A stretch of 64,000 nucleotides of DNA. Source: Thermococcus piezophilus. GTDB lineage: Archaea; Methanobacteriota_B; Thermococci; Thermococcales; Thermococcaceae. Positions 1,145 through 10,911 of the stretch are shown here, in pieces. The notes under the pieces were generated by a model, which saw only the letters and a list, made by a program, of their open reading frames with translations, was not told the DNA's origin and ran no database searches. Numbering within the stretch: position 1 is the first letter of the stretch; each line of letters opens with the position of its first letter. The stretch is taken from assembly GCF_001647085.1 (NCBI RefSeq), contig NZ_CP015520.1:1818219-1882218 (forward strand), written 5' to 3'. Both the position numbers and the translations under genes were made by a program.

Positions 1145-1951
1145 CTAACTCCACGTCTCCGCTATGACGTCGTGCTTGTGGATGCTCTCGTTGCTGATGA
1201 CCCTCACGTGAATCCTGCCCTTAAAGCGCTCCTTGGCCTTGGCGAAGATTTCTCTCGCAACATCCTCCACGAACTTCGGGTTCCTGTACATGCCCTGAAC
1301 GACGGCGTTCTCGTCCACCGTCTTGAGCAGCGTGTAGGTCGGGTGACTGAAGGAGCTCTCAACGACGTCTATCATGTCCTCAAGTGCTATCTCCTCGTCG
1401 AAGGCAGTCCTGACTTCCAGCTCGCCGACCGCGCGCTGGATGTGGGTTTTCCCCATGTTGTTGGCCATCGCGTGCGGACAGGCGGTGTTTCCGATAACCT
1501 TAACCCTTAGAATCTTCTCAAAGCTTCCGTCCTCATTCTTGAGGACACCGACTTCAACGTCATAGGGCTCGTAGGTGGTCTTTTTGCTCGCCGGAGTCTC
1601 GCGAGGGATTATGAGGTGAGTTCTTATCCAGACCTCAGCCCTCTTGTGTGGGTGCTTGCCTTCGAGCCTATAAATGACTGCCTTCCCAAGCTCTTCGAGC
1701 GAGCTGTGGGCTTCCATTACCTCTTCCTCAACGGCCTCGCTCATCGCTTCCGTTATGCTTTCCACGAGCCTGCTCATGTGTATGCCCTTCTTCTCTTCGG
1801 GAACGTCGATAGTTATCTCAAAAAGCGGGAGGAAAGTGTACACCCTTCCTTTCCAGTTTATCTTTGCCACCGTTCGGAGATTTGTTATTCCGACACGGTG
1901 AAGACGCTCTCTAATCTCGGGAATCTCTTCCTGGGTCTCGAATATCGGCAT
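1145..1951 (-). CDS. mptA: GTP cyclohydrolase MptA (type IV, FolE2-like)
   Basis: This protein belongs to the FolE2/MptA family (COG1469), which converts GTP to a dihydroneopterin cyclic phosphate. In Thermococcales it most likely feeds pterin or 7-deazaguanine (archaeosine) synthesis. The 268-residue length fits the family. Visible family features are the [20 protein letters not shown] segment with a conserved Cys-x-His pair and the [12 protein letters not shown] segment late in the protein. The start is ATG 1951 ([17 protein letters not shown]), placed after GGGTGAT. The gene begins 19 bases after the stop of mcrC on the same strand, so it may be partly read through from the restriction operon. 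Confidence 0.9.
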
Positions 1952-1970
1952 GAGTATCACCCTGAACTTT

Positions 1971-3416
1971 TTAGGGGCATCTATGAGGGGGGCTTTTTAA
2001 ATGTACGCCGTGATGTGCTTCCACATATCTTCCCTCACATAGAGACAGCAGGTGTTCCCTAAGGTTTTTGGCAACCGAATCCCTCAAAACGACACCGTTT
2101 CGGGTTATAAACACGTCCGTCCCAACTCTGGAGAGCTCGTATCCAAAGAGCCCGAAGGGCGTACCGTCGAAGAAGCTGAGAATCTCTTCGCCGGGCCCAA
2201 ACATGTCCGGAATCCAGTGGTTGTACACCCCCTCCAGGCGGGGATAAACGATCGCCGCACTTCCTCCGGCGAGGCGGGAATAGGAGTATATCTGGTAGAG
2301 CTCCTCGCTGTTTCGGACGAGCTTTCTCCGCCACTTCCCCCGCATCTTTACAAGGAGACTGCGGTATTTGACCTCAACCACGCATTTCCCGGAATCTGTT
2401 ACAATTAGTATATCCGGAAGCGGGGGCCCGAAAGTAAAAACAGCCCCCAATTCTGCCTCCACCTTCCGGGAATCTTTAACAAGGTGCGGGAGGAGGTAGT
2501 CCCTGTAGACCCTCCCCCACCCAGTTAGGGCCCTCTTTATTGTGTGATACACCAGGTTCTCAAATAGATGAGCCATATCTATAAAAACTCCCTGCTGCGC
2601 CGTGCCCCTTTGACTTCCTCTGCTGAACCCTCTGAGGATTATTGTTGCGAGGATGTAGACTGGCCTGAACCTCTCGTTCAGGGGGTTGAAGGACACCCTG
2701 CTGAAATCGTTTTGATTGAGCTGTCCAACTCCCCTAAAGTACTCAAGAAGAGAGCCGGCCGCCCTTCTCACCCCGTTCCACTCTGAGTTCTCCGTCACCA
2801 CTTCAAGTGCGGCCCTCAATACCCTGTTCAGCGGGTTGTCGATTCCAAGGACCGAATGCCTGACGGGGATATCCAGCTGTCCGGGTGCTGTCCTGATCAA
2901 ACGCGAAAGGAGCACCCTCCCCCGGATGGTCTTGGTGTTCTCTTCGAGTTCATTGTACTCCTGGTACATCCCGTGGAATATTCTCCTCCCCAGCTGGGAG
3001 ACGTAGAGGTAAAAGAACAGCTCATGGATCAGCTCACCTTCGTCCTGGTAAGCGGAGACAGCAAGCTCTATATCGCGTGGGCTCATACCCAGGCTGCCGC
3101 TCAGGTTGAGCAGACTGAGGAAGAACTTCATGGAACGCCTCTGGTCGGAATCGTGCCTGTAGGGTTTCGGAAGAACCTGTATCATGAACGGCTCATCCCC
3201 AAGGTAGTATGCGAAGCCCACACTCCCATGGGCCTGGATGTAGTAGTCCCCCTTGCTGACGTCGTATCTCAGGCTCAGGACGTCATTTTCATGGCCGTAA
3301 GTCCTGTTGATAAAGTCAAAAAACCTCTGGAGTTCGGAGGGGGATACCTTTATACCCTCAGCCTGGAGACTTTGGAGGTACTTTCTCTGGAACTCGTAAA
3401 GGGTTACCGCCCTCAT
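1971..3416 (-). CDS. mcrC: McrC-family nuclease subunit of a McrBC restriction system
   Basis: McrC is the nuclease partner of the GTP-driven McrB motor in modification-dependent restriction. The 481-residue protein has the family's N-terminal beta-rich region and a C-terminal PD-(D/E)xK nuclease: the helix FENLVYHTI near 286, PDILIVTD (Asp335), VVEVKYR (Glu348, Lys350) and a QIYSYSR helix near 375. All catalytic positions look intact. The start ATG overlaps the McrB stop by four bases (ATGA), behind a G-rich ribosome binding site, so the two are translationally coupled. Intact motifs in both subunits suggest a working system despite the many broken genes elsewhere. Confidence 0.9.
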
Positions 3417-5563
3417 TCCGACCCCCCCAGCCTGCGGAGGGCATCCATGAACTCGTCAAGGTTCATCCGAATTATCCGGCCCCTCTCGTCTATGAACTCA
3501 AAGCCTGGATAGAGGGATCGGAGGTGCTCCCAGTTCCCGTAAAAGTACTCTTGGAAAAGAGGCAGCACCTTGTGGTAGAAGACCAGGTAGAGCGCCTGCC
3601 TTGGGTCGTCCGCGGAGGGAACATCGAGAAAGTATCCGTGCCCTATGGTGTAGTCTTTGCCCTTTTCCTGCTCGATAATGGAGTTTATTCTCATGATGAG
3701 GTGTTCAAGGTCTATCCCATCCACATTTATCCCTCTGAGTTTCTCAGGATCTGGAGACAGTTCCACGAATGCGAACCTCCTTCTGAGTGCGATGTCGAGC
3801 ATCGCTATGCTTCTGTCCGCCGAGTTCATGGTGGCGACTATGTATAAGTTGGGGGGTAGCGCAAAAAGCTCTCCCGAGTATGGAAGGGTCACTATAGTCT
3901 CGTTTGGGGCGCCCAGCCTTTTATCGGGATCGAGGAGGGTTATCAGCTCACCGAGTATTCTGCTTATATTGCCCCTGTTTATTTCATCAATTACCATGTA
4001 GAATTCTCTCTGAGGCTTAATGGCAGTCTTCTTTCCTTTTCTCCTTTTTTCCAGGAACTTCTGGACTGCTAGCTTCATATCCTCATACCCTGCGTTGTTT
4101 TTGTGTTCTCGGAATTCCTCCGGTAGGGAGTCGTATATTGCTCGCACTGCCAGGCGCTTAAATACTCCGTCGAAGACACGGTACACAACGTTCCCGTCTT
4201 TTTCAACAGGTCTAAACCCCTCGACGAAATCCTCATAACTGTAAGACTGGTGGAATGTGACAAACTCCGCGTTTTTGGCGGTTTTAAGCGCCAGGTATGT
4301 TTTACCCGTGCCGGGCGGCCCGTAGATGATGACCTGCTTGAACCTCTGAAGCAGGGGCTCCAGAAACGTCCCCCCAGTTTTTTCGGCCGTTTCCCCTTTT
4401 TTGTTCCCAACAGGTCCAAGCTCGGAAACCCCCACCCTTGATTCACTTTCCCGGTTCGGAGTTTCAGACACCTCGAGCCGGTAAAGGTAGTCCACGTCCC
4501 TGCGGAGAAAGTAATAGAAAGTTCCGCCCGAACTTTTTCCCCCGCTTCTACCTAAGTAAAGAACTCTCCCATCCATTGATATTCCCGCGAACTTTGGATC
4601 AACAACCCCAGGGACATACCTCCCCAGAACCGCATCTCCGCGGAAATCTTCCACTTTTATCTTTTTGGTGGTGTTAATGACATCGAAGGGTACGAGCCAG
4701 GCCTTCAGGTTTCCACCGTATATACCCGTTATGACAAAAAGTCCTCTGGATGTGAATGATAGGAACACCAGCTCCCCGGGAAGCAGTGCCACTTTCGTTC
4801 CGGCGGCGCTCATGAGGTAAATCTCATTTCCCCCCTTGGTGCCGAGAGCTGCAATAAAAGAGCCGTTTTCCAGCCATATGTCCCCCACATGCCTTCCTCC
4901 CCGAGGCACAATGCTGGATTTTGAGAGGGTCTCAACGCCATCCCAGAACTCCAGGGAAGAATAGTAAGGAAACATTGGGAGAGGAACCATTCCCAGCTCC
5001 AGGCGCGGCTTTTGATTCTCTCTGAAGGTATAGAGCAGGTAAAGTGAGTCCTTGGTATCCTTTACTGAATGGAGATACGCAAAACCATTTGATGGCGTTG
5101 GAATCTTGATGACTTCAATCTCCGCAGGTGCAAAGTACTCTACCTTGTAATCACAGAACACCACAAGCCTTCCTAGGGAGGTAAAATTGACGTAAAGGGG
5201 CAGTCTGGTAAACGTTACTGAGAGCGCATCAGATTCCGGATTGTCCGACTGGATAGGGTAAATTTTAACCTCCCCAGTATAGCACTTCGTGAAGACTGCG
5301 AGTTCTCTTTTCCCTGGAAACATCACCACCTCGTCCGCGCAGGGCACAGGAATGCCCTTTTCCCAACCTTCGAGGAGCCGTCCTCCTGTTTCAAAAGCGT
5401 GTATGAACCTTGAGTCGTCATCCAGTCTTACCAGAACTGCCAGATACCTCCCGCTGGGAAACAGCTTCAGGTCTTCAACGACGAAGCCAAAGTCCCCGTA
5501 CTCGCTGTCCAAAAACCTGTTTATAGAATACATTGAACTTTTCATTGGTACCGGACGAATCAT
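3413..5563 (-). CDS. mcrB: McrB-like AAA+ GTPase with beta-propeller-like N-terminal half
   Basis: The protein has 716 residues from ATG 5563 (MIRPVPMKSS), four bases after GGTGAT. Residues about 400-716 form the McrB motor: Walker A GPPGTGKTY (415-423), the segment FHQSYSYEDFVEG, Walker B with the McrB signature VIDEINRGN (524-532), and sensor MNSADRS (579-585) followed by RRRFAF. Residues 15-370 are not a usual McrB targeting domain. They contain repeated strand-rich units such as LKLFPSGRYLAVLV, VVMFPGKRELAVFT, IWLENGSFIAALG and LSFTSRGLFVITG, the look of a WD40-like beta-propeller. A linker rich in Ser, Glu and Lys (about 370-400) separates the halves. The propeller assignment is inference from the repeat pattern. 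Confidence 0.85.
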   Translation of the reverse strand: MIRPVPMKSSMYSINRFLDSEYGDFGFVVEDLKLFPSGRYLAVLVRLDDDSRFIHAFETGGRLLEGWEKGIPVPCADEVVMFPGKRELAVFTKCYTGEVKIYPIQSDNPESDALSVTFTRLPLYVNFTSLGRLVVFCDYKVEYFAPAEIEVIKIPTPSNGFAYLHSVKDTKDSLYLLYTFRENQKPRLELGMVPLPMFPYYSSLEFWDGVETLSKSSIVPRGGRHVGDIWLENGSFIAALGTKGGNEIYLMSAAGTKVALLPGELVFLSFTSRGLFVITGIYGGNLKAWLVPFDVINTTKKIKVEDFRGDAVLGRYVPGVVDPKFAGISMDGRVLYLGRSGGKSSGGTFYYFLRRDVDYLYRLEVSETPNRESESRVGVSELGPVGNKKGETAEKTGGTFLEPLLQRFKQVIIYGPPGTGKTYLALKTAKNAEFVTFHQSYSYEDFVEGFRPVEKDGNVVYRVFDGVFKRLAVRAIYDSLPEEFREHKNNAGYEDMKLAVQKFLEKRRKGKKTAIKPQREFYMVIDEINRGNISRILGELITLLDPDKRLGAPNETIVTLPYSGELFALPPNLYIVATMNSADRSIAMLDIALRRRFAFVELSPDPEKLRGINVDGIDLEHLIMRINSIIEQEKGKDYTIGHGYFLDVPSADDPRQALYLVFYHKVLPLFQEYFYGNWEHLRSLYPGFEFIDERGRIIRMNLDEFMDALRRLGGSE

Positions 5564-5596
5564 TACAATCACCAATAGGAATGGAGGCTGTAAGGG

Positions 5597-5609
5597 TATT
5601 AAATCTTTT
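5597..5609 (-). promoter_or_regulatory. probable promoter of the mcrBC operon
   Basis: On the minus strand the sequence reads AAAAGATTTAATA, an archaeal BRE/TATA-like element centred about 40 bases before the McrB start. Transcription would begin near 5576, leaving a short leader that contains the GGTGAT ribosome binding site. The operon would therefore be transcribed independently of the upstream DUF4129 gene. Confidence 0.5.
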
Positions 5610-5631
5610 CCCTACCCGTCAGAGTCTCTGA

Positions 5632-6402
5632 CTACCTCAGAAAGTCCATCAGCCTCTCATAGCTCTCCCGCGCCACTTCAACGTCCCCATCGCTAAGCCT
5701 CCCGGCGTATTTTGCCTTCTCAAAAATCCGTGTTAGGACGTCGAGGTCATCCAAATCTGGGAAAATCTCCCTGAGCTTCTCCTCGTGCTCCCAGTGGGTC
5801 CAGCTTTTGCGGTAGGGATAGCCTTTCATGACAAGGCCAGCGACGACGTTCTTGTACATCTTGATGACCCTCTCGGCCGGCGTCCCTTTGAGGGCCTCGT
5901 AGCGCATCTCAGGGTTAAAACGCACCTCGAACTCCACTTTCCTTTTCCTTCTCCACAGAGCTGTGCCGGCTATGAGCAGGAAGATAATGAAGGGAAGAAG
6001 ATAGAAGACCGCAGGAAGCTCCCTCAGGACGACCTGAACGCCTCCAGAAGTTATGTAGTCCAAGGCGCCTTCGATGGTTTTCACCGCATCGGGGCCCTCA
6101 AAGAGCTTCTCCGTCCTCTTATCCAGGAGAAGCTTTATCGCCACGAAAAAGGCAAGTATCGTTATTATCGTCGCCAGGACGTTTCTCTTCTTCCTCTTTC
6201 GCTCCTCCCTGTCGAGGCCTTCTGAGAGCATTATTTTAACTACGTAGCCAGCCATCGCGAGGAGCGTCAGGTTCACAAAGAAAAAGAACCACTCGATGTT
6301 GAAGACCGTAACACCGCCGTGCACAGCAGTACTCCCGAGAAGGGTGAAGAGCAGAAGGAGGAAGGAAAACAGGGCCCCGTAAAGGGCCTTCATTCTCTCC
6401 AT
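5632..6402 (-). CDS. DUF4129-domain membrane protein
   Basis: This 256-residue membrane protein has about four predicted membrane segments: residues 5-28, 36-58, 76-92 and 128-150. A cytosolic C-terminal domain (about 155-256) resembles DUF4129, with the TPAERVIKMYKNVVAGL helix, the YRKSWTHWEHEEKLRE segment and a closing FEKAKYAGRLSDGDVEVARESYERL. DUF4129 proteins often accompany MoxR ATPases and transglutaminase-like proteins, but none is present here. The start overlaps the end of the HTH gene upstream, so it is the last gene of the long minus-strand operon. The biochemical role is unknown. Confidence 0.7.
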   Translation of the reverse strand: MERMKALYGALFSFLLLLFTLLGSTAVHGGVTVFNIEWFFFFVNLTLLAMAGYVVKIMLSEGLDREERKRKKRNVLATIITILAFFVAIKLLLDKRTEKLFEGPDAVKTIEGALDYITSGGVQVVLRELPAVFYLLPFIIFLLIAGTALWRRKRKVEFEVRFNPEMRYEALKGTPAERVIKMYKNVVAGLVMKGYPYRKSWTHWEHEEKLREIFPDLDDLDVLTRIFEKAKYAGRLSDGDVEVARESYERLMDFLR

Positions 6403-6800
6403 TGCCGAGCACCCATCTTCTCGATCAGGTAGTAAACCGTCCTGAGCGGAATTCCCATACGTGAGCTTATCTCCTTGGGGGTTACGCCCTTCCGTATAAG
6501 GTCGTAAACCTCACGGATAGTCCGCTCATCGTACTTCCGCGGCCTTCCACGGGGATAGCCCCCGGGAACGAGCTCTATGCCCATCTGCGCGAGGGCGTTT
6601 ATCGCTTTCTTCGAGACCTTCGGATAGAGGCTCGGCGGGCAGGAAATCTTCCTCACGTTGGGGGCCCTTTCAAGGATCCTCACGAGTATCTCCTTGGTCG
6701 GGCGAAGGTTAATGTAGACTTCCGTAACTTCCTCGTTCAGGCTTTCGTTGAGCTTCCTTATGAGCTCGGCGTTGTTCTTGGCCTTTATCTCCACCCTCAC
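6390..6800 (-). CDS. DUF1699-type protein with C-terminal helix-turn-helix
   Basis: The 136-residue protein starts at GTG 6800 after GGTGATG. The N-terminal part (1-80) has short alternating helices and strands with VYINLRPTKEILVRIL and SCPPSLYPKVSKKAI, matching my recollection of the DUF1699 family. The C-terminal part contains GRPRKYDERTIREVYDLI followed by a resolvase-like helix-turn-helix (GVTPKEISSRMGIPLRTVYYLI). That points to a DNA-binding regulator. It sits four bases after the DUF530 gene and overlaps the DUF4129 gene. Target unknown. Confidence 0.7.
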   Translation of the reverse strand: MRVEIKAKNNAELIRKLNESLNEEVTEVYINLRPTKEILVRILERAPNVRKISCPPSLYPKVSKKAINALAQMGIELVPGGYPRGRPRKYDERTIREVYDLIRKGVTPKEISSRMGIPLRTVYYLIEKMGARQWRE

Positions 6801-6804
6801 ACCA

Positions 6805-8052
6805 TCACCCCTGGAGGAGGGCTAAGAACTGCTTCGCCCTGTCGCTCTTTGGCATAAACTTTTCGAACTTCTTGGTGTCTGCAAAGAGCGTCTTGTGAAG
6901 GCCGGATATAACGAACTTTTTTATGGCCTCGATGAGCTCGTCCTTTGGGATGTCCAGCAACTCGGCAACTTTCTCTTCGCTGTAGCCGCTCATTCCGTAG
7001 AGCAGGACTCCTCCAAGAAGATAGTTGGGGATGTTGGTTATATCCTTCCTCCTGCCAACTAGGGCCCTCTCCATCTCACACTTCCTTGTGATGAGTATGC
7101 TACCGTGGCCCGTTTTAAAGCCAGGCTCATCCCTGAAGGGAAGATCGAAGATCGAGTAGTGGCAGTCGATGCAGAGCTTTATGTCCGGATAGAGGCCCAG
7201 CACTTCCCTCTCGGTCTCAGAAGTGAGGAAATAGTAGCGGAACAAGTCCAAGCCGAGCAGTTCGGCACCCTTCTTTGGATCGAGGATAGAGTAGGCCAGC
7301 GCAAGGTTATCCACTGTGTAGTGGTTGTTTATAATGGCGCCCTTTGTCTTAACGAAGCTCAGCACGCGCCAGCGGAAGCGCTTCCCGTAGCGCTGGCGGA
7401 GCTCGCTCTCGATGTCCGCATTGGCCGGAAGGTCTATACGGGCCTTCTTAAGCCTGTTGTTCTCCCAGTATTCCACCTCTATGCGCAGTCCGCGCGTTCT
7501 CACTGTCCCCTTCTCGCGGAGCTTGGCCTTTATGAATTTGAAGGTCTCCCTGACCTCGATGCTTTCTCTTGCCAGAAGGCGGAGTACGTCACCGGAATAT
7601 GCCAAATAAGGAAGCACCTCAATGCGCCCGAGCTGGACAGGCTTTTGGATGGCCTTAACCTTTGGAATATCCTCCCTCTTGAGCTCCCTGATTGAGAGCT
7701 CCCTCTTTCCAAGGGTGAAAGTATAGTTGGCCGCTATCAAAGCGAGGGCCATCTTGTGGGAGGTAATAGCCGAGCGGAGCCTCTCAAGGGCTAAAACACG
7801 GTTGCGCTTCTTCTTGTATATCCACTGGATGTGAGGATCCTTGCTCTTCTTGTCGAAGCCCCCCACCGAGGGAGCAACCTCGCCGACGCGCCTCGATAAA
7901 TTCTCCTCAAGCTCCTGGAGGAGAGACAGGTTCTCCTTCAAACGGTAAGAAATGGACGGGACGTCAAAAGTCTCGAATAACCCATCCATGTCTATCCCGA
8001 TGTCGTCCAGTATCTTGTTCACCTGTGCGACGAGCTCTTCTGTCGTCGTCAT
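6805..8052 (-). CDS. DUF530 family protein
   Basis: This 415-residue protein resembles the DUF530 family (PF04409) of Thermococcales and methanogens. It has a helical N-terminus (residues 1-60) and a central basic region. A C-terminal part contains a Cys/His cluster ([12 protein letters not shown], near 298-307) and a helix-turn-helix-like tail ([22 protein letters not shown]). The Cys/His cluster and HTH-like tail suggest nucleic-acid contact, but no function is established. Its ATG overlaps the Top6A stop (ATGA), so it is translated together with topoisomerase VI, which hints at a link to chromosome topology. Confidence 0.75.
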
Positions 8053-9209
8053 GGCAGGAGCTCACCGTTGTTTATCTTTTCAGGGAGGTACTTCTTCGCC
8101 ACGAACTCGAGGGACTTATTGGCCAGAGCCTGCTGCTCTATCCTAACCCCCATCTTGAGAGCGAGCTGGAGCTGCCTCTGCCACTCCTTGTTCTGGAACC
8201 ATGGATAGTTCATCTCCTCCATGATTCTCTTGTAGTCGCCCGTCGGACCACCCTTCTTGTTGGGCGGTATTCCCTTGAGCTTCTCGGTGACGTTCTTGAG
8301 CCCGTACCTCTCGATGTCGTCCATGGTCATGCCCACGAACTTAGCTTCCGGCGTTGCCAGCTTCTCGCTGAGGTATGCGAGGTTAATGGAGCCCTGCTTT
8401 ATGGTGGAGTAGATGTACCAACCGTAGGGGTCTCCATCGGTGAAGACTATGATGGGCAGCCCCTCCTCGTAGTGGAGCCTGTGGATGAGCCTCCTGACTC
8501 CACGGGAGGCCTGTCCCTGGGTGGCTATTATGAGGGCGTTCTCCTTCTTCGGGAACTTTTCCTCGATGAGACGGTCGGCCATAGCTGCGGTCTCGACGAC
8601 TAGGGCGTAGTCAACATTGACTTCCACGAACTGGAGGTGCTCCACAGTTCCTGGAACGGCCCAGCCACCCATACCGAGCTTGCTCGTGTTGAACTCGTCC
8701 TCCCCGTCGCGTATGACGATGTCACCGTATATGTAGCCGCGCCTGTCCGCTGTGAGGTGCATCTCCTCACGGAGAACGCCGAGCATTCTCTCAAGGTCCT
8801 CGATGATCGGGTCGCTCTCGCGCTGGTCCTCGAAGGTGTTCTCCTTCGTTCCCGGAATGGTGTGCTTGTTGGCGTAGTAGGCTTCACGAAGGCTCGCGTG
8901 CTTGCCTTCGGCCACGAGCCTCTTGACGTAGGACATTGTGAGGAGCGTCTGCATGAACTTTCTCGCGTGAGCGACGTTGAGGAAGTACCTCCTGGAGAGC
9001 TTGTCGCCCATCTTGATGACTTTCCTCTTCTCGTCGAAGTAGACGTTGCCGAGGCCACGCATAGGTATGTCGAAGTAGGGGTTTTTGCCCGACTTTATGT
9101 CCTCAAGAACCCTCCTTCCGTACTCTTCGAGCTTGCTGAGAACCTTCTGGGGATCATAGACAAAGTGCTCTCTCGGTTGGCTTCTCTTGACGGCTTTGGA
9201 TTTAGGCAT
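8049..9209 (-). CDS. top6A: DNA topoisomerase VI subunit A
   Basis: This is the Spo11-like cleavage subunit of the type IIB topoisomerase, which makes two-base-staggered double-strand breaks with an A2B2 complex. The 386-residue length is normal. The winged-helix domain carries the active-site tyrosine in [11 protein letters not shown] (Tyr111/112). The Toprim domain is visible as [17 protein letters not shown] followed by [13 protein letters not shown], with the acidic metal ligands. It overlaps the end of top6B by eight bases and the start of the DUF530 gene by four. B before A is the usual archaeal order. Confidence 0.95.
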
Positions 9210-10911
9210 TCTCGGTCACCTCCGCAGGGACGGCTCTCTCTTCACTCTCGCTCTGGGCGAACTTCATCTCGATGAACCCCAGGAAGTAGTTTTTAATCTC
9301 CTCCTCGGGCTCGCCCGTCAGAATGCTTAGTGCCCTCGCTATCTCAGGCACGTACTTCTCAAAGGTCTTCTTCCTCTTCACCTGGTAGAGCCTGCGGTGC
9401 TTTCCGCTGAGGTATGTCTGAAGCTTCCTCGCGGCGTCCATTATTGCCAGCCTGATCTCGTTGTAGATTTCCTCCACATTGGCTATGCTCTGCTTGCCCG
9501 TTCCAGTGTAGGGCACGTGGACGCTGATGACGTTTATCATGAGAACCACTGGCGCCCTCTCGAGGTCGTCTACTTTGTACCTCTTCCAGTCAATGGAGCG
9601 AGCCGCCAAGGTCGTCACACATGAGCCGGCATCAAAGAGGAGCGGAACGCGGTTGGCGTAGCGGAGAAGGTCGAAACCGTTGCTTATCTCTCCGCCGTAA
9701 GCCAGGCCTACCTCGACCTGGAAAGGAATACCTCCGCTGTAGACCTTCGGCGGCCTCGTAACGGCGGTGACGAACTCTGGCTTGAGGATTCCCATGAGGC
9801 CCTTCTCTATGTTCTCCTCACCTATAGGTCTTAAACCGTGCGTCGGCGGTGCTAGGAACTTCATAAACTTGAAGGCCTCAACGATTTCCTCAGCCTCATG
9901 CCAGGTGAGCTTCTCGGGCGGCTTCTCCATTATCTTCTCGACTTCCTTAACGACCTTGCGCCAATTCCTTCCGAAGGACTTGAGGACTTTCTCCACTTCC
10001 TCGTTCATGAGCCTCTCGTAGAACTGCTCCTGGACGTTCTTGTCTTCCTCAGTCTTGATGAGCCTGAGCGCCGCTATGTACATGACAAGCTCGTCGACCT
10101 TCTTGTCGCTTATCCTGGAGAACTCGCCGATGAGGAAGCGCCTTACTGTGTTCCTCCTAGTCCTCTTCGCCATCCTGTAAACGTCGTCCGTTAGAACACC
10201 CCTCGGGTGAGGCTTCATCTCAACCGGCGGCTTTGGAACCTCCTCGCTCGAGCGCGGGAAGACGATGAGCTTTCCATCGGGTTCAATCAGCTCGATGTGG
10301 GCGTGGGGGTTCGCTATAGCGGTGAGCTTGAGGTACCAGTAGACACCCTGCTTCGAGCGGACGTATTTAACGTTCTTGACCTCAAGCTCGATCCTCGTCC
10401 CGCGCCAGCCCTTAGGATTGGGGTGCTTCTCCTTCTTGACTATCTTGCCCTCGTTCTTGTCGACGTCAATCTTAACCCACGCCTCAACTATCTTGTCGTC
10501 TCCGGTGGAGGTGATAACGCGAGTTGCCTTTCCGCTCGTTATCTGGGCAAACATCACTGCACCGCTTATACCAATACCCTGCTGACCGCGGCTCTGTATG
10601 TTCCTGTGGGCCTTCGTACCGGCCAGCATCTTACCGAAGACGTGGGTTATGAACTTCTCGGGAATGCCTGGGCCGTTGTCCTCAACTGTGACCTTGTAGT
10701 GCTCCCTCCCAAGCTCCTCTATTTCAACACGGACGTAGGGGAGTATTCCAGCTTCCTCACATGCGTCGAGTGAGTTTGTAACGGCCTCGTGGACGACGGT
10801 GGTGAGGGAGCGTATCTTTCCGGTATAGCCCAGCATTGCCGCGTTTCGCCTGAAAAACTCGCTGACGCTCTGAATCTTAAACTCCTTGAACAGCTCCTTG
10901 GCTTCGGCCAT
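9202..10911 (-). CDS. top6B: DNA topoisomerase VI subunit B
   Basis: This is the ATPase subunit of topoisomerase VI. The GHKL fold is clear from the N-box NSLDACE (near 47-53), the G1 motif [12 protein letters not shown] and the G2 motif [16 protein letters not shown] helix-two-turn-helix domain and a transducer domain follow; the lysine-containing switch region [14 protein letters not shown] is near 470. The 569-residue length is typical. It starts two bases after the KH-protein gene and overlaps top6A, consistent with coupled translation of the two subunits. Confidence 0.95.

Follow-up and report, generated by a model that had tools for sequence, protein, structure and literature searches.

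McrBC is the textbook example of a restriction enzyme that depends on DNA modification. In other conflict systems, namely the STAND/NLR-like and MoxR-vWA-propeller systems, a propeller or repeat domain is joined to or paired with an NTPase and is presumed to be the sensor, the NTPases belonging to clades different from McrB. The McrBC of Escherichia coli K-12 unites a GTPase motor with the McrC nuclease and, in the available text of PMC11090510 and PMC7680126, is described as reading methylcytosine through a DUF3578 domain. The latter source assigns to the McrB of Thermococcus gammatolerans (TgMcrB, PDB 6ut5/6ut3; entry 6p0f is a 185-residue construct) an N-terminal domain of YTH fold that targets 6mA DNA. 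A further variation is LlaJI, whose McrB-like motor with a B3 domain acts on unmodified DNA and is accompanied by two methyltransferases, according to the accessible part of PMC12707154. The CoCoNuT branch of McrBC is distinguished in the accessible part of PMC11090510 by an NxD variant of the GTPase signature and by long coiled coils. Finally, McrBC1 of T. kodakarensis (TK0795-TK0794) is called just a 5-methylcytosine restriction system in the printed passages available, which leave its N-terminal domain undescribed.

The locus analysed here lies in a 64,000-nucleotide stretch of the genome of the thermophilic archaeon Thermococcus piezophilus, termed the window (contig NZ_CP015520.1, positions 1,818,219 to 1,882,218), and encodes a McrBC pair that resembles these systems in its motor and nuclease while bearing a different N-terminal domain. 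Its features are as follows:

1145..1960, minus strand: resident flank, type I GTP cyclohydrolase (folE2/MptA-like), PF02649 E=6e-63
1971..3416, minus strand: McrC nuclease subunit, PF10117 E=2e-50, PD...EVK nuclease motif
2002..5631, minus strand: additional DNA compared with the closed site in G040, a near relative, by junction alignment with L077
3413..4359, minus strand: McrB AAA+ GTPase domain (residues 402-716) and stop, PF07728 E=4e-14 and motifs
4360..4468, minus strand: variable linker between N-terminal domain and motor (residues 366-401), from alignment A1
4469..5563, minus strand: McrB N-terminal domain (residues 1-365), from the strand pattern of two low-confidence AlphaFold models and propeller matches
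8049..9209, minus strand: resident flank, topoisomerase VI subunit A, PF21180 E=4e-55 and conserved order

The mcrB ORF (3413-5563, minus strand) runs from an ATG at 5563 through its stop and specifies 716 residues (translation of 3416-5563). An alternative start, a TTG lying four codons further upstream, gives a 720-residue form. Akin to TgMcrB, whose AAA+ domain it matches strongly (phmmer against 6ut3, E=6e-69), the protein is paired with a McrC, the two genes overlapping by 4 bp here and adjoining with the same 4-bp overlap in all 21 loci. A first-pass annotation, made from the sequence alone, had described intact GTPase motifs (GPPGTGKTY, VIDEINRGN, MNSADRS) in the C-terminal 320 or so residues and an intact McrC partner. 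This description is accurate throughout: all three motifs are present in the translation, the length of the motor is correct because the AAA part starts near residue 402, and the partner has both the PF10117 match and the nuclease motif. Among the homologues, Walker A (GPPGTGKT), Walker B (VIDEINRG) and the MNSADRS signature are found in 21 of 21 McrB motors, and the PD...EVK motif is intact in all 20 readable McrCs, that of the window included. An AAA+ GTPase with Walker A/B motifs and an MNxxDRS signature, adjacent to a PD-(D/E)xK McrC, places the pair within McrBC; the NxD signature of the CoCoNuT branch is absent from the window McrB, MNSADRS being of the NxxD form. The motor is preceded by a linker corresponding to poorly conserved, length-variable columns (approximately 392-430) of alignment A1.

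It is upstream of this linker that the protein departs from TgMcrB, as blastp aligns the two only in the motor; a protein from another locus of the same genus (L096) is identical in length to TgMcrB and matches 6ut5 over 1-613. The first-pass annotation had held that the N-terminal domain is none of the known McrB readers, and the searches agree. A Pfam scan of the window McrB and of 21 N-terminal domains gave no match to DUF3578, EVE/PUA, YTH or B3, and relaxing the threshold to E of up to 10 for the 21 domains yielded scattered weak matches only, among them Aladin, a propeller family, in 2 of 21 (best E 0.36) and one non-propeller family in 1 of 21 (E 0.033). A profile search of the PDB retrieved antibody chains only, at E 0.18 and above, while the positive control, TgMcrB, retrieved its own YTH structure at E=2e-123. 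The exclusion of a base reader is thus one made at the level of sequence. The domain is no chance reading, since 73 of the 367 alignment columns are invariant over the sequences from 21 genomes, and it diverges more quickly than the motor does (mean distances of 0.463 and 0.298, respectively, at 19 loci), which is the behaviour expected of a specificity module. We dropped one argument against DNA binding, the acidity of the domain (D+E exceeds K+R in 21 of 21), as TgMcrB is likewise acidic in its N-terminal part.

Two AlphaFold models of the domain, each built from three sequences and with mean pLDDT of 53 and 50, were used to examine its fold. Confidence is better at residues 11-120 or so than overall; in model 1 it falls below 50 over residues 137-237 and 318-370 (with 245-310 at about 57-71), and in model 2 over nearly all of residues 138-366. 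The layout consists of an N-terminal helix (about 8-22) followed by short-stranded meanders, which may be divided into seven putative blades at about 27-74, 75-118, 119-157, 158-223, 224-263, 264-310 and 311-361. Among the 50 Foldseek entries listed per model, all those with an informative title are propeller proteins; for a few chains, from microtubules, centrioles and the like, the title does not allow a judgement. Global TM-scores were only 0.20-0.33. VIA-align superposed 111 residues with an rmsd of 2.3 A (Z 11.5) in one match and 126 with 3.3 A (Z 12.4) in another, and alignments extending over the entire model had an rmsd of about 7-10 A; no non-propeller family was recognised in its tables, a result that carries no weight against one. 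Four-stranded meander blades are accordingly seen for residues 1-145 or so, in low-confidence models with matches judged by title and Z up to 12.4. Neither model predicts a closed ring of 4-10 blades, and the stretches of pLDDT below 50 past residue 137 or so make both too weak to speak for or against one. On these models, assignment of the domain as beta-propeller-like, with no closed ring predicted, is well supported. The propeller sensor of the first-pass annotation therefore survives in its blade-like structure and in its best fold matches, where titles tell, while the closed six- to eight-bladed ring that was to be its check is neither borne out nor contradicted by the models. Much the same applies to the repeat units it had listed (FPSGRYLAV, FPGKRELAV, ENGSFIAAL, SFTSRGLFV), which are present and fall in strand-rich stretches of the models but are weak as sequence repeats. 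Self-comparison by hhalign gave two off-diagonal matches (E 0.088 and 0.12), and mean blade-versus-blade similarity (13.9) was higher than in any of 40 column shuffles (mean 12.2, maximum 13.5) but barely higher than in reversed segments (13.2); we dropped internal sequence repeats on account of this last control.

Of 94 Thermococcales genomes, 21 were found to hold the N-terminal domain. These 21 belong to one genus, and every one of them has the domain fused to a McrB with McrC directly behind, bearing out the constant pairing that the first-pass annotation had proposed as a check. It was not found in the remaining 73, some of them incomplete, which include the very near relative G040. A single chromosomal site is used in all cases, between the topoisomerase VI genes and the GTP cyclohydrolase gene, and this interval is short in 54 genomes that lack the domain. 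The gene at 9202-10911, after topoisomerase VI subunit A, we take to be top6B, a name also given in print to TK0799. In the window the extra DNA runs from directly past the stop of a DUF4129 gene to TTTAAAA, in front of the cyclohydrolase gene. We rejected the neighbouring DUF4129 and HTH genes as parts of the system, as the closed sites that we read carry them as well (HTH in 6 of 6, DUF4129 in 5 of 6). Its placement in trees partly conflicts with that of flanking genes, so the cassette has probably been exchanged. The sole match outside the genus (G109, E 0.0024) was dropped as chance, the frame in which it falls being recognisable as a quinolinate synthase. No relatives were found in 50,697 phage records or 72,556 plasmid records, nor in IMG/VR contigs by a two-pattern scan. 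A scan of genome contigs retrieved just 2 loci when 21 genomes hold the gene, and therefore has little bearing on wider distribution. A sigma-70 promoter scan, a tool unsuited to an archaeon, returned nothing.

The syntenic T. kodakarensis orthologue of the window pair (L049) is TK0795-TK0794, and it bears the same N-terminal domain. The identification rests on two McrC genes in the expected order, on top6B four genes on being TK0799, and on the mass of the McrB (79.68 kDa, compared with 79.7 kDa printed for TK0795 in the available part of PMC7325993). Its N-terminal domain is only 44-45% identical to that of the window, and therefore its specificity may differ. The available text of PMC13385129 reports that deletion of TK0794-TK0795 gave the greatest plasmid transformation, that dam+/dcm+ and dam-/dcm- plasmid showed 'relatively similar' trends, and that autonomous plasmids benefited while integrative ones hardly did. 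The same text, whose authors credit methylcytosine, reports that unmethylated plasmid fared better in all strains, that lysate of a strain without both McrBCs still degraded methylated plasmid, and that parental lysate, with both present, spared unmethylated plasmid. Conditions in the parental lysate may not suit McrBC, yet the result opposes methylation-independent cutting. The printed data on modification dependence of the orthologue are thus mixed, the benefit to unmethylated plasmid in cells standing against its sparing in lysate. A remote relative of the domain may be present in the second T. kodakarensis McrBC; the match of TK1009-type proteins to PF20030 has an E of about 0.06 only.

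The interpretation we favour, at a little under an even chance, is a McrBC pair in which a beta-propeller-like specificity module replaces the modified-base reader, the propeller binding a feature of the target so that plasmids are kept out. The arrangement would recall the propeller-NTPase sensors of the MoxR-vWA-propeller systems (compare the Pfam description of PF20030). The domain would select DNA by something other than Dam or Dcm methylation, possibly a protein or nucleoprotein, and, judging by the published knock-outs of the relative, the enzyme may also hinder plasmids that lack the tested bacterial methyl marks. In this scheme, the face of the propeller would bind the feature that marks the target, the likeliest candidates being a DNA-bound protein or nucleoprotein and a particular state of the DNA itself; McrB hexamers would load at the bound feature; and GTP-driven translocation with McrC would lead to cutting of the DNA. 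Its normal role would be exclusion of autonomous plasmids and similar elements, beyond Dam- or Dcm-methylated DNA. Sensing of something other than a base, also suggested by the first-pass annotation, draws on the in-cell trends of the orthologue and is opposed by the lysate result (PMC13385129, available text); its candidate targets, a phage protein, a nucleoprotein or an RNA, receive no particular pointer to any of the three.

A possible alternative, to which we accord a substantial minority chance, is that the domain reads a modified base or a specific DNA sequence through an unfamiliar, perhaps propeller, fold, making the pair an ordinary Type IV or LlaJI-like enzyme. The McrB N-terminal domains DUF3578, YTH and B3 bind DNA (PMC7680126 and PMC12707154, accessible parts), and B3 of LlaJI reads an unmodified site (PMC12707154), a capacity that would also fit methylation-independent restriction; the sparing of unmethylated plasmid by the parental lysate likewise favours this alternative. 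Against it, the domain matches no base-reading family, and no methyltransferase gene is seen in the cassette, the insert being mcrB and mcrC, so that, unlike LlaJI, a plain site reader would need another way to spare host DNA.

An extended form of the propeller hypothesis appears unlikely as a whole: a modification-independent, chromosome-resident surveillance nuclease whose protein-binding propeller detects autonomous plasmids that are then destroyed, both T. kodakarensis McrBCs acting alike. A possible cue for such surveillance is a replication protein or an un-chromatinised DNA state.

We regard as improbable a chromosomal housekeeping factor derived from McrBC, in which the propeller serves to anchor the nuclease on chromatin or on another chromosomal protein, aberrant host DNA is handled and plasmid restriction is a side effect. 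The single fixed site adjoining the topoisomerase VI genes is consistent with such a factor, as is the listing of TK0795 among 26 proteins of isolated chromosomes (PMC7325993, Table 3, in the part available), and the poorer growth printed for T. kodakarensis deletion strains leaves room for a non-defence role. However, patchy presence (the cassette was not found in 73 of 94 genomes, some incomplete, including G040), fast evolution and probable exchange look like defence. Least probable is another all-beta fold, or a degraded structural extension with no sensing role: low-confidence models and weak repeats would suit either, whereas the 73 invariant columns over 21 sequences argue against decay and the best fold matches of both models, propellers where titles tell, against another fold.

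Among the matches listed, as judged by titles and abstract openings, the domain is undescribed in the literature on McrB/McrBC, propeller/WD40 and Thermococcus restriction, and the words 'propeller' and 'WD40' are absent from the main text of PMC11090510 and PMC7641849. A propeller reader could explain why McrBC deletions aid transformation with plasmid free of Dam and Dcm methylation. If the reading is true, recognition of a protein or of a structure could direct the same motor and nuclease, and the question would shift from which mark is read to which partner is bound, a question open to direct test, since deletion strains exist and T. kodakarensis is genetically tractable.

The McrBC system of the window joins a GTPase motor and a nuclease, constantly paired and held at a fixed chromosomal site, to a fast-evolving domain occupying the first ~365 residues of McrB (the N-domain). 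McrBC with this N-domain is a new variant, found in one genus so far in the collections searched. The relevant features of the window, which belongs to a 1.93 Mb genome on one contig, are as follows.

1971-3416, minus strand: McrC, PD...ExK motif intact, 4-bp overlap with mcrB
2002-5631: mcrBC cassette, the exact extra block relative to the near-identical neighbourhood of locus L077 (junction alignment)
3413-5563, minus strand: McrB, 716 residues (from translation)
5632-6402: DUF4129 membrane-protein gene, upstream of mcrB
6390-6800: gene for a small DUF1699/HTH protein, lying between mcrB and the genes of topoisomerase VI

The first-pass annotation had described an McrB motor with an intact McrC partner, and both descriptions hold: the AAA+ GTPase runs from residue ~402 on (PF07728, E=4e-14), and the protein matches McrB of Thermococcus gammatolerans (6ut3) at E=6e-69. 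The McrC of the window has 481 residues, versus 463 in six relatives. The N-domain, which had been set apart from the known base-reading domains, came near the cut-off of no Pfam family and matched no PDB sequence in single-sequence or profile searches, the top profile row being an antibody chain (E 0.18). The T. gammatolerans McrB present in a relative (locus L096), run as a positive control, recovered the structure of its N-domain (6p0f) at E=2e-123.

Among 94 Thermococcales genomes, the N-domain is present in 21, all of the window's genus (19 of 74 where completeness is at least 90%); two homologous loci from named records are Thermococcus MAGs. Profile searching across the phylum (115 genomes) added a single further match, which was taken for chance. 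Homologues of this fusion are always paired with McrC: in 21/21 the N-domain is fused to McrB in a single stop-free frame, the three GTPase motifs are intact and mcrC overlaps mcrB by 4 bp, and all 20 readable mcrC genes retain the nuclease motif (the contig of locus L043 terminates within mcrC). Identity of the N-domain to that of the window falls from 88% to 44%.

All of these loci share one site, with the topoisomerase VI genes, a DUF530 gene and an HTH gene on one side and GTP cyclohydrolase on the other; both flanks lie on one contig in 19 of the 21, and the readable side agrees in the two cut by contig ends. The distance from top6A to cyclohydrolase is 5,210-6,328 bp in the 19 loci with mcrBC versus 1,687-2,609 bp in 54 of the 73 genomes without the N-domain (in the other 19 the genes were missing, far apart, on another contig or strand, or split by contig ends), and this short interval indicates that the 54 measurable genomes carry no other insert of comparable size there. 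Remnants of mcrB or mcrC were absent, at E up to 1e-3, from six closed sites examined whole. The window holds 3,630 bases more than L077, a locus of the close relative G040 (top6A 99% identical); they start directly past the DUF4129 stop codon. At the other end, the 3' end of mcrC extends across the TTTAAAA that precedes the cyclohydrolase gene.

Across the 19 loci, mean between-species distances are 0.40 for McrB, 0.46 for the N-domain and 0.43 for McrC, versus 0.14 for the flanking genes, and some tree placements of mcrBC conflict with the flank tree. Locus L031 groups with the window in McrB (support 0.92) and McrC (0.99), with only 0.32 for the N-domain alone, and with locus L037 in the flank tree (0.99). 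High divergence combined with such conflicts is the pattern expected if a defence gene is swapped between genomes by way of homologous flanks.

In some relatives the DUF4129 gene lies 3' of mcrC, and in others a search at E up to 1e-8 did not find it next to mcrBC; this varying position implies that it moves independently of mcrBC. The DUF1699/HTH gene is retained with and without mcrBC; the HTH part of its product weakly matches mad1 in PADLOC (E=1e-6).

The first-pass annotation had further proposed that the N-domain is a beta-propeller. Two AlphaFold models, each built from three sequences only (the window and two close relatives), have mean pLDDT of 53.4 and 50.4, with 10-residue means of 70-88 at residues 11-70 and 101-110 in both. 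In model 1, pLDDT is below 50 at 137-237 and 318-370 and about 57-71 at 245-310; in model 2 it is below 50 for nearly everything past residue 138. Both place a helix at ~8-22 followed by short strands, which can be grouped as seven meanders, although the count of seven is our own reading of the models. At E up to 0.001, Foldseek found 164 PDB matches for model 1 and 126 for model 2; among the 50 listed per model, all with judgeable titles are propeller proteins, including prolyl oligopeptidases, DPP4, the clathrin terminal domain, WIPI2 and eIF3b, while the fold of a few chains (microtubule, centriole and similar) could not be judged from the title. Structural alignments within the first ~190 residues cover 104-138 residues at 2.3-4.3 A. 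Their Z of about 11-12 compares with the 7-8 usual for models that have no clear match; over the whole model, rmsd rises to about 7-10 A. Sequence comparison did not demonstrate repeats in the N-domain. The propeller proposal thus stands for a blade-like first third, as modelled, and for the propeller matches, whereas a closed ring does not appear in these low-pLDDT, three-sequence models.

McrC matches number 45, in 37 of the 94 Thermococcales genomes, with 21 at the top6A-cyclohydrolase site; we fetched 18 of the 24 elsewhere in the order. Two of the accompanying McrB proteins have N-domains of ~395 residues that look similarly strand-rich and are different from that of the window.

L082 1752-4238, plus strand: TK1009, the second McrB of T. 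kodakarensis
L083 1519-3972, plus strand: McrB of genome G014, a relative

A profile of this pair aligned with the 21 N-domains over 243 collinear columns with a score of 26.4 (E=0.013), which was not reached by 150 column shuffles (maximum 22.4), by the reversed profile (15.5) or, among open frames of the window, by the 26 that yielded a row (maximum 20.3); singly, L082 and L083 reached only 20.7 and 17.4. Distant kinship between these ~395-residue N-domains and that of the window is likely on these profile scores, short of proof. The L083 N-domain occurs in 2 of the 115 genomes, its own and G024. Judged by length, first residues and a Pfam scan of ten, the remaining fetched McrB proteins look unlike the window's N-domain; L096 has a YTH domain and L085 an EVE match within its GTPase part.

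Genome G024, one of the 21, belongs to T. kodakarensis KOD1. The two mcrC genes there are ordered as expected for TK0794-TK0795 and TK1009-TK1010, its McrB from a GTG start is 79.68 kDa versus the 79.7 kDa published for TK0795, and top6B lies four genes beyond mcrB, matching TK0799. According to PMC13385129, both pairs were deleted in a strain already without both Type IIL systems; transformation was greatest after deletion of TK0794-TK0795 (McrBC1), reaching roughly one cell in 1000 when the plasmid was unmodified. The gain concerned autonomous plasmids and was only marginal for integrative ones, and dam+/dcm+ and dam-/dcm- plasmid followed 'relatively similar' trends across the strains. The authors credit the effect of deletion to methylcytosine. 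Unmethylated plasmid fared better in every strain, and methylated plasmid was still degraded by lysate of the strain without both McrBC pairs. From these passages, methylation-dependent plasmid loss looks separate from both McrBCs, and in cells McrBC1 seems also to act on plasmid that lacks Dam/Dcm marks, a reading that departs from the authors' own and is taken from the wording of the source rather than its numbers and for a plasmid on which other E. coli marks are possible. Against methylation-independent action of McrBC1 stands the sparing of unmethylated plasmid by parental lysate, with both McrBCs present; that lysate may lack something McrBC needs. In PMC7325993, TK0795 is among 26 proteins listed from isolated chromosomes, an association that is only suggestive because the list also includes ribosomal and ATP synthase proteins.

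The first-pass observation stands, and its interpretation does so in part, for the motor, the pairing and the blade-like structure. Propellers bind mostly proteins or peptides. The propeller-like domain would bind a target mark, where the hexameric GTPase would assemble and, with McrC, translocate and cut DNA, after the E. coli McrBC as described in PMC7680126. Given the binding habit of propellers, a cassette in which no methyltransferase gene was seen, and knock-outs that in cells also affect plasmid without Dam/Dcm marks, we prefer as ligand a protein, nucleoprotein or DNA state to a base mark, giving this preference about an even chance of being right. The system is of special interest in that it occurs in a genetically tractable organism for which deletion strains already exist.
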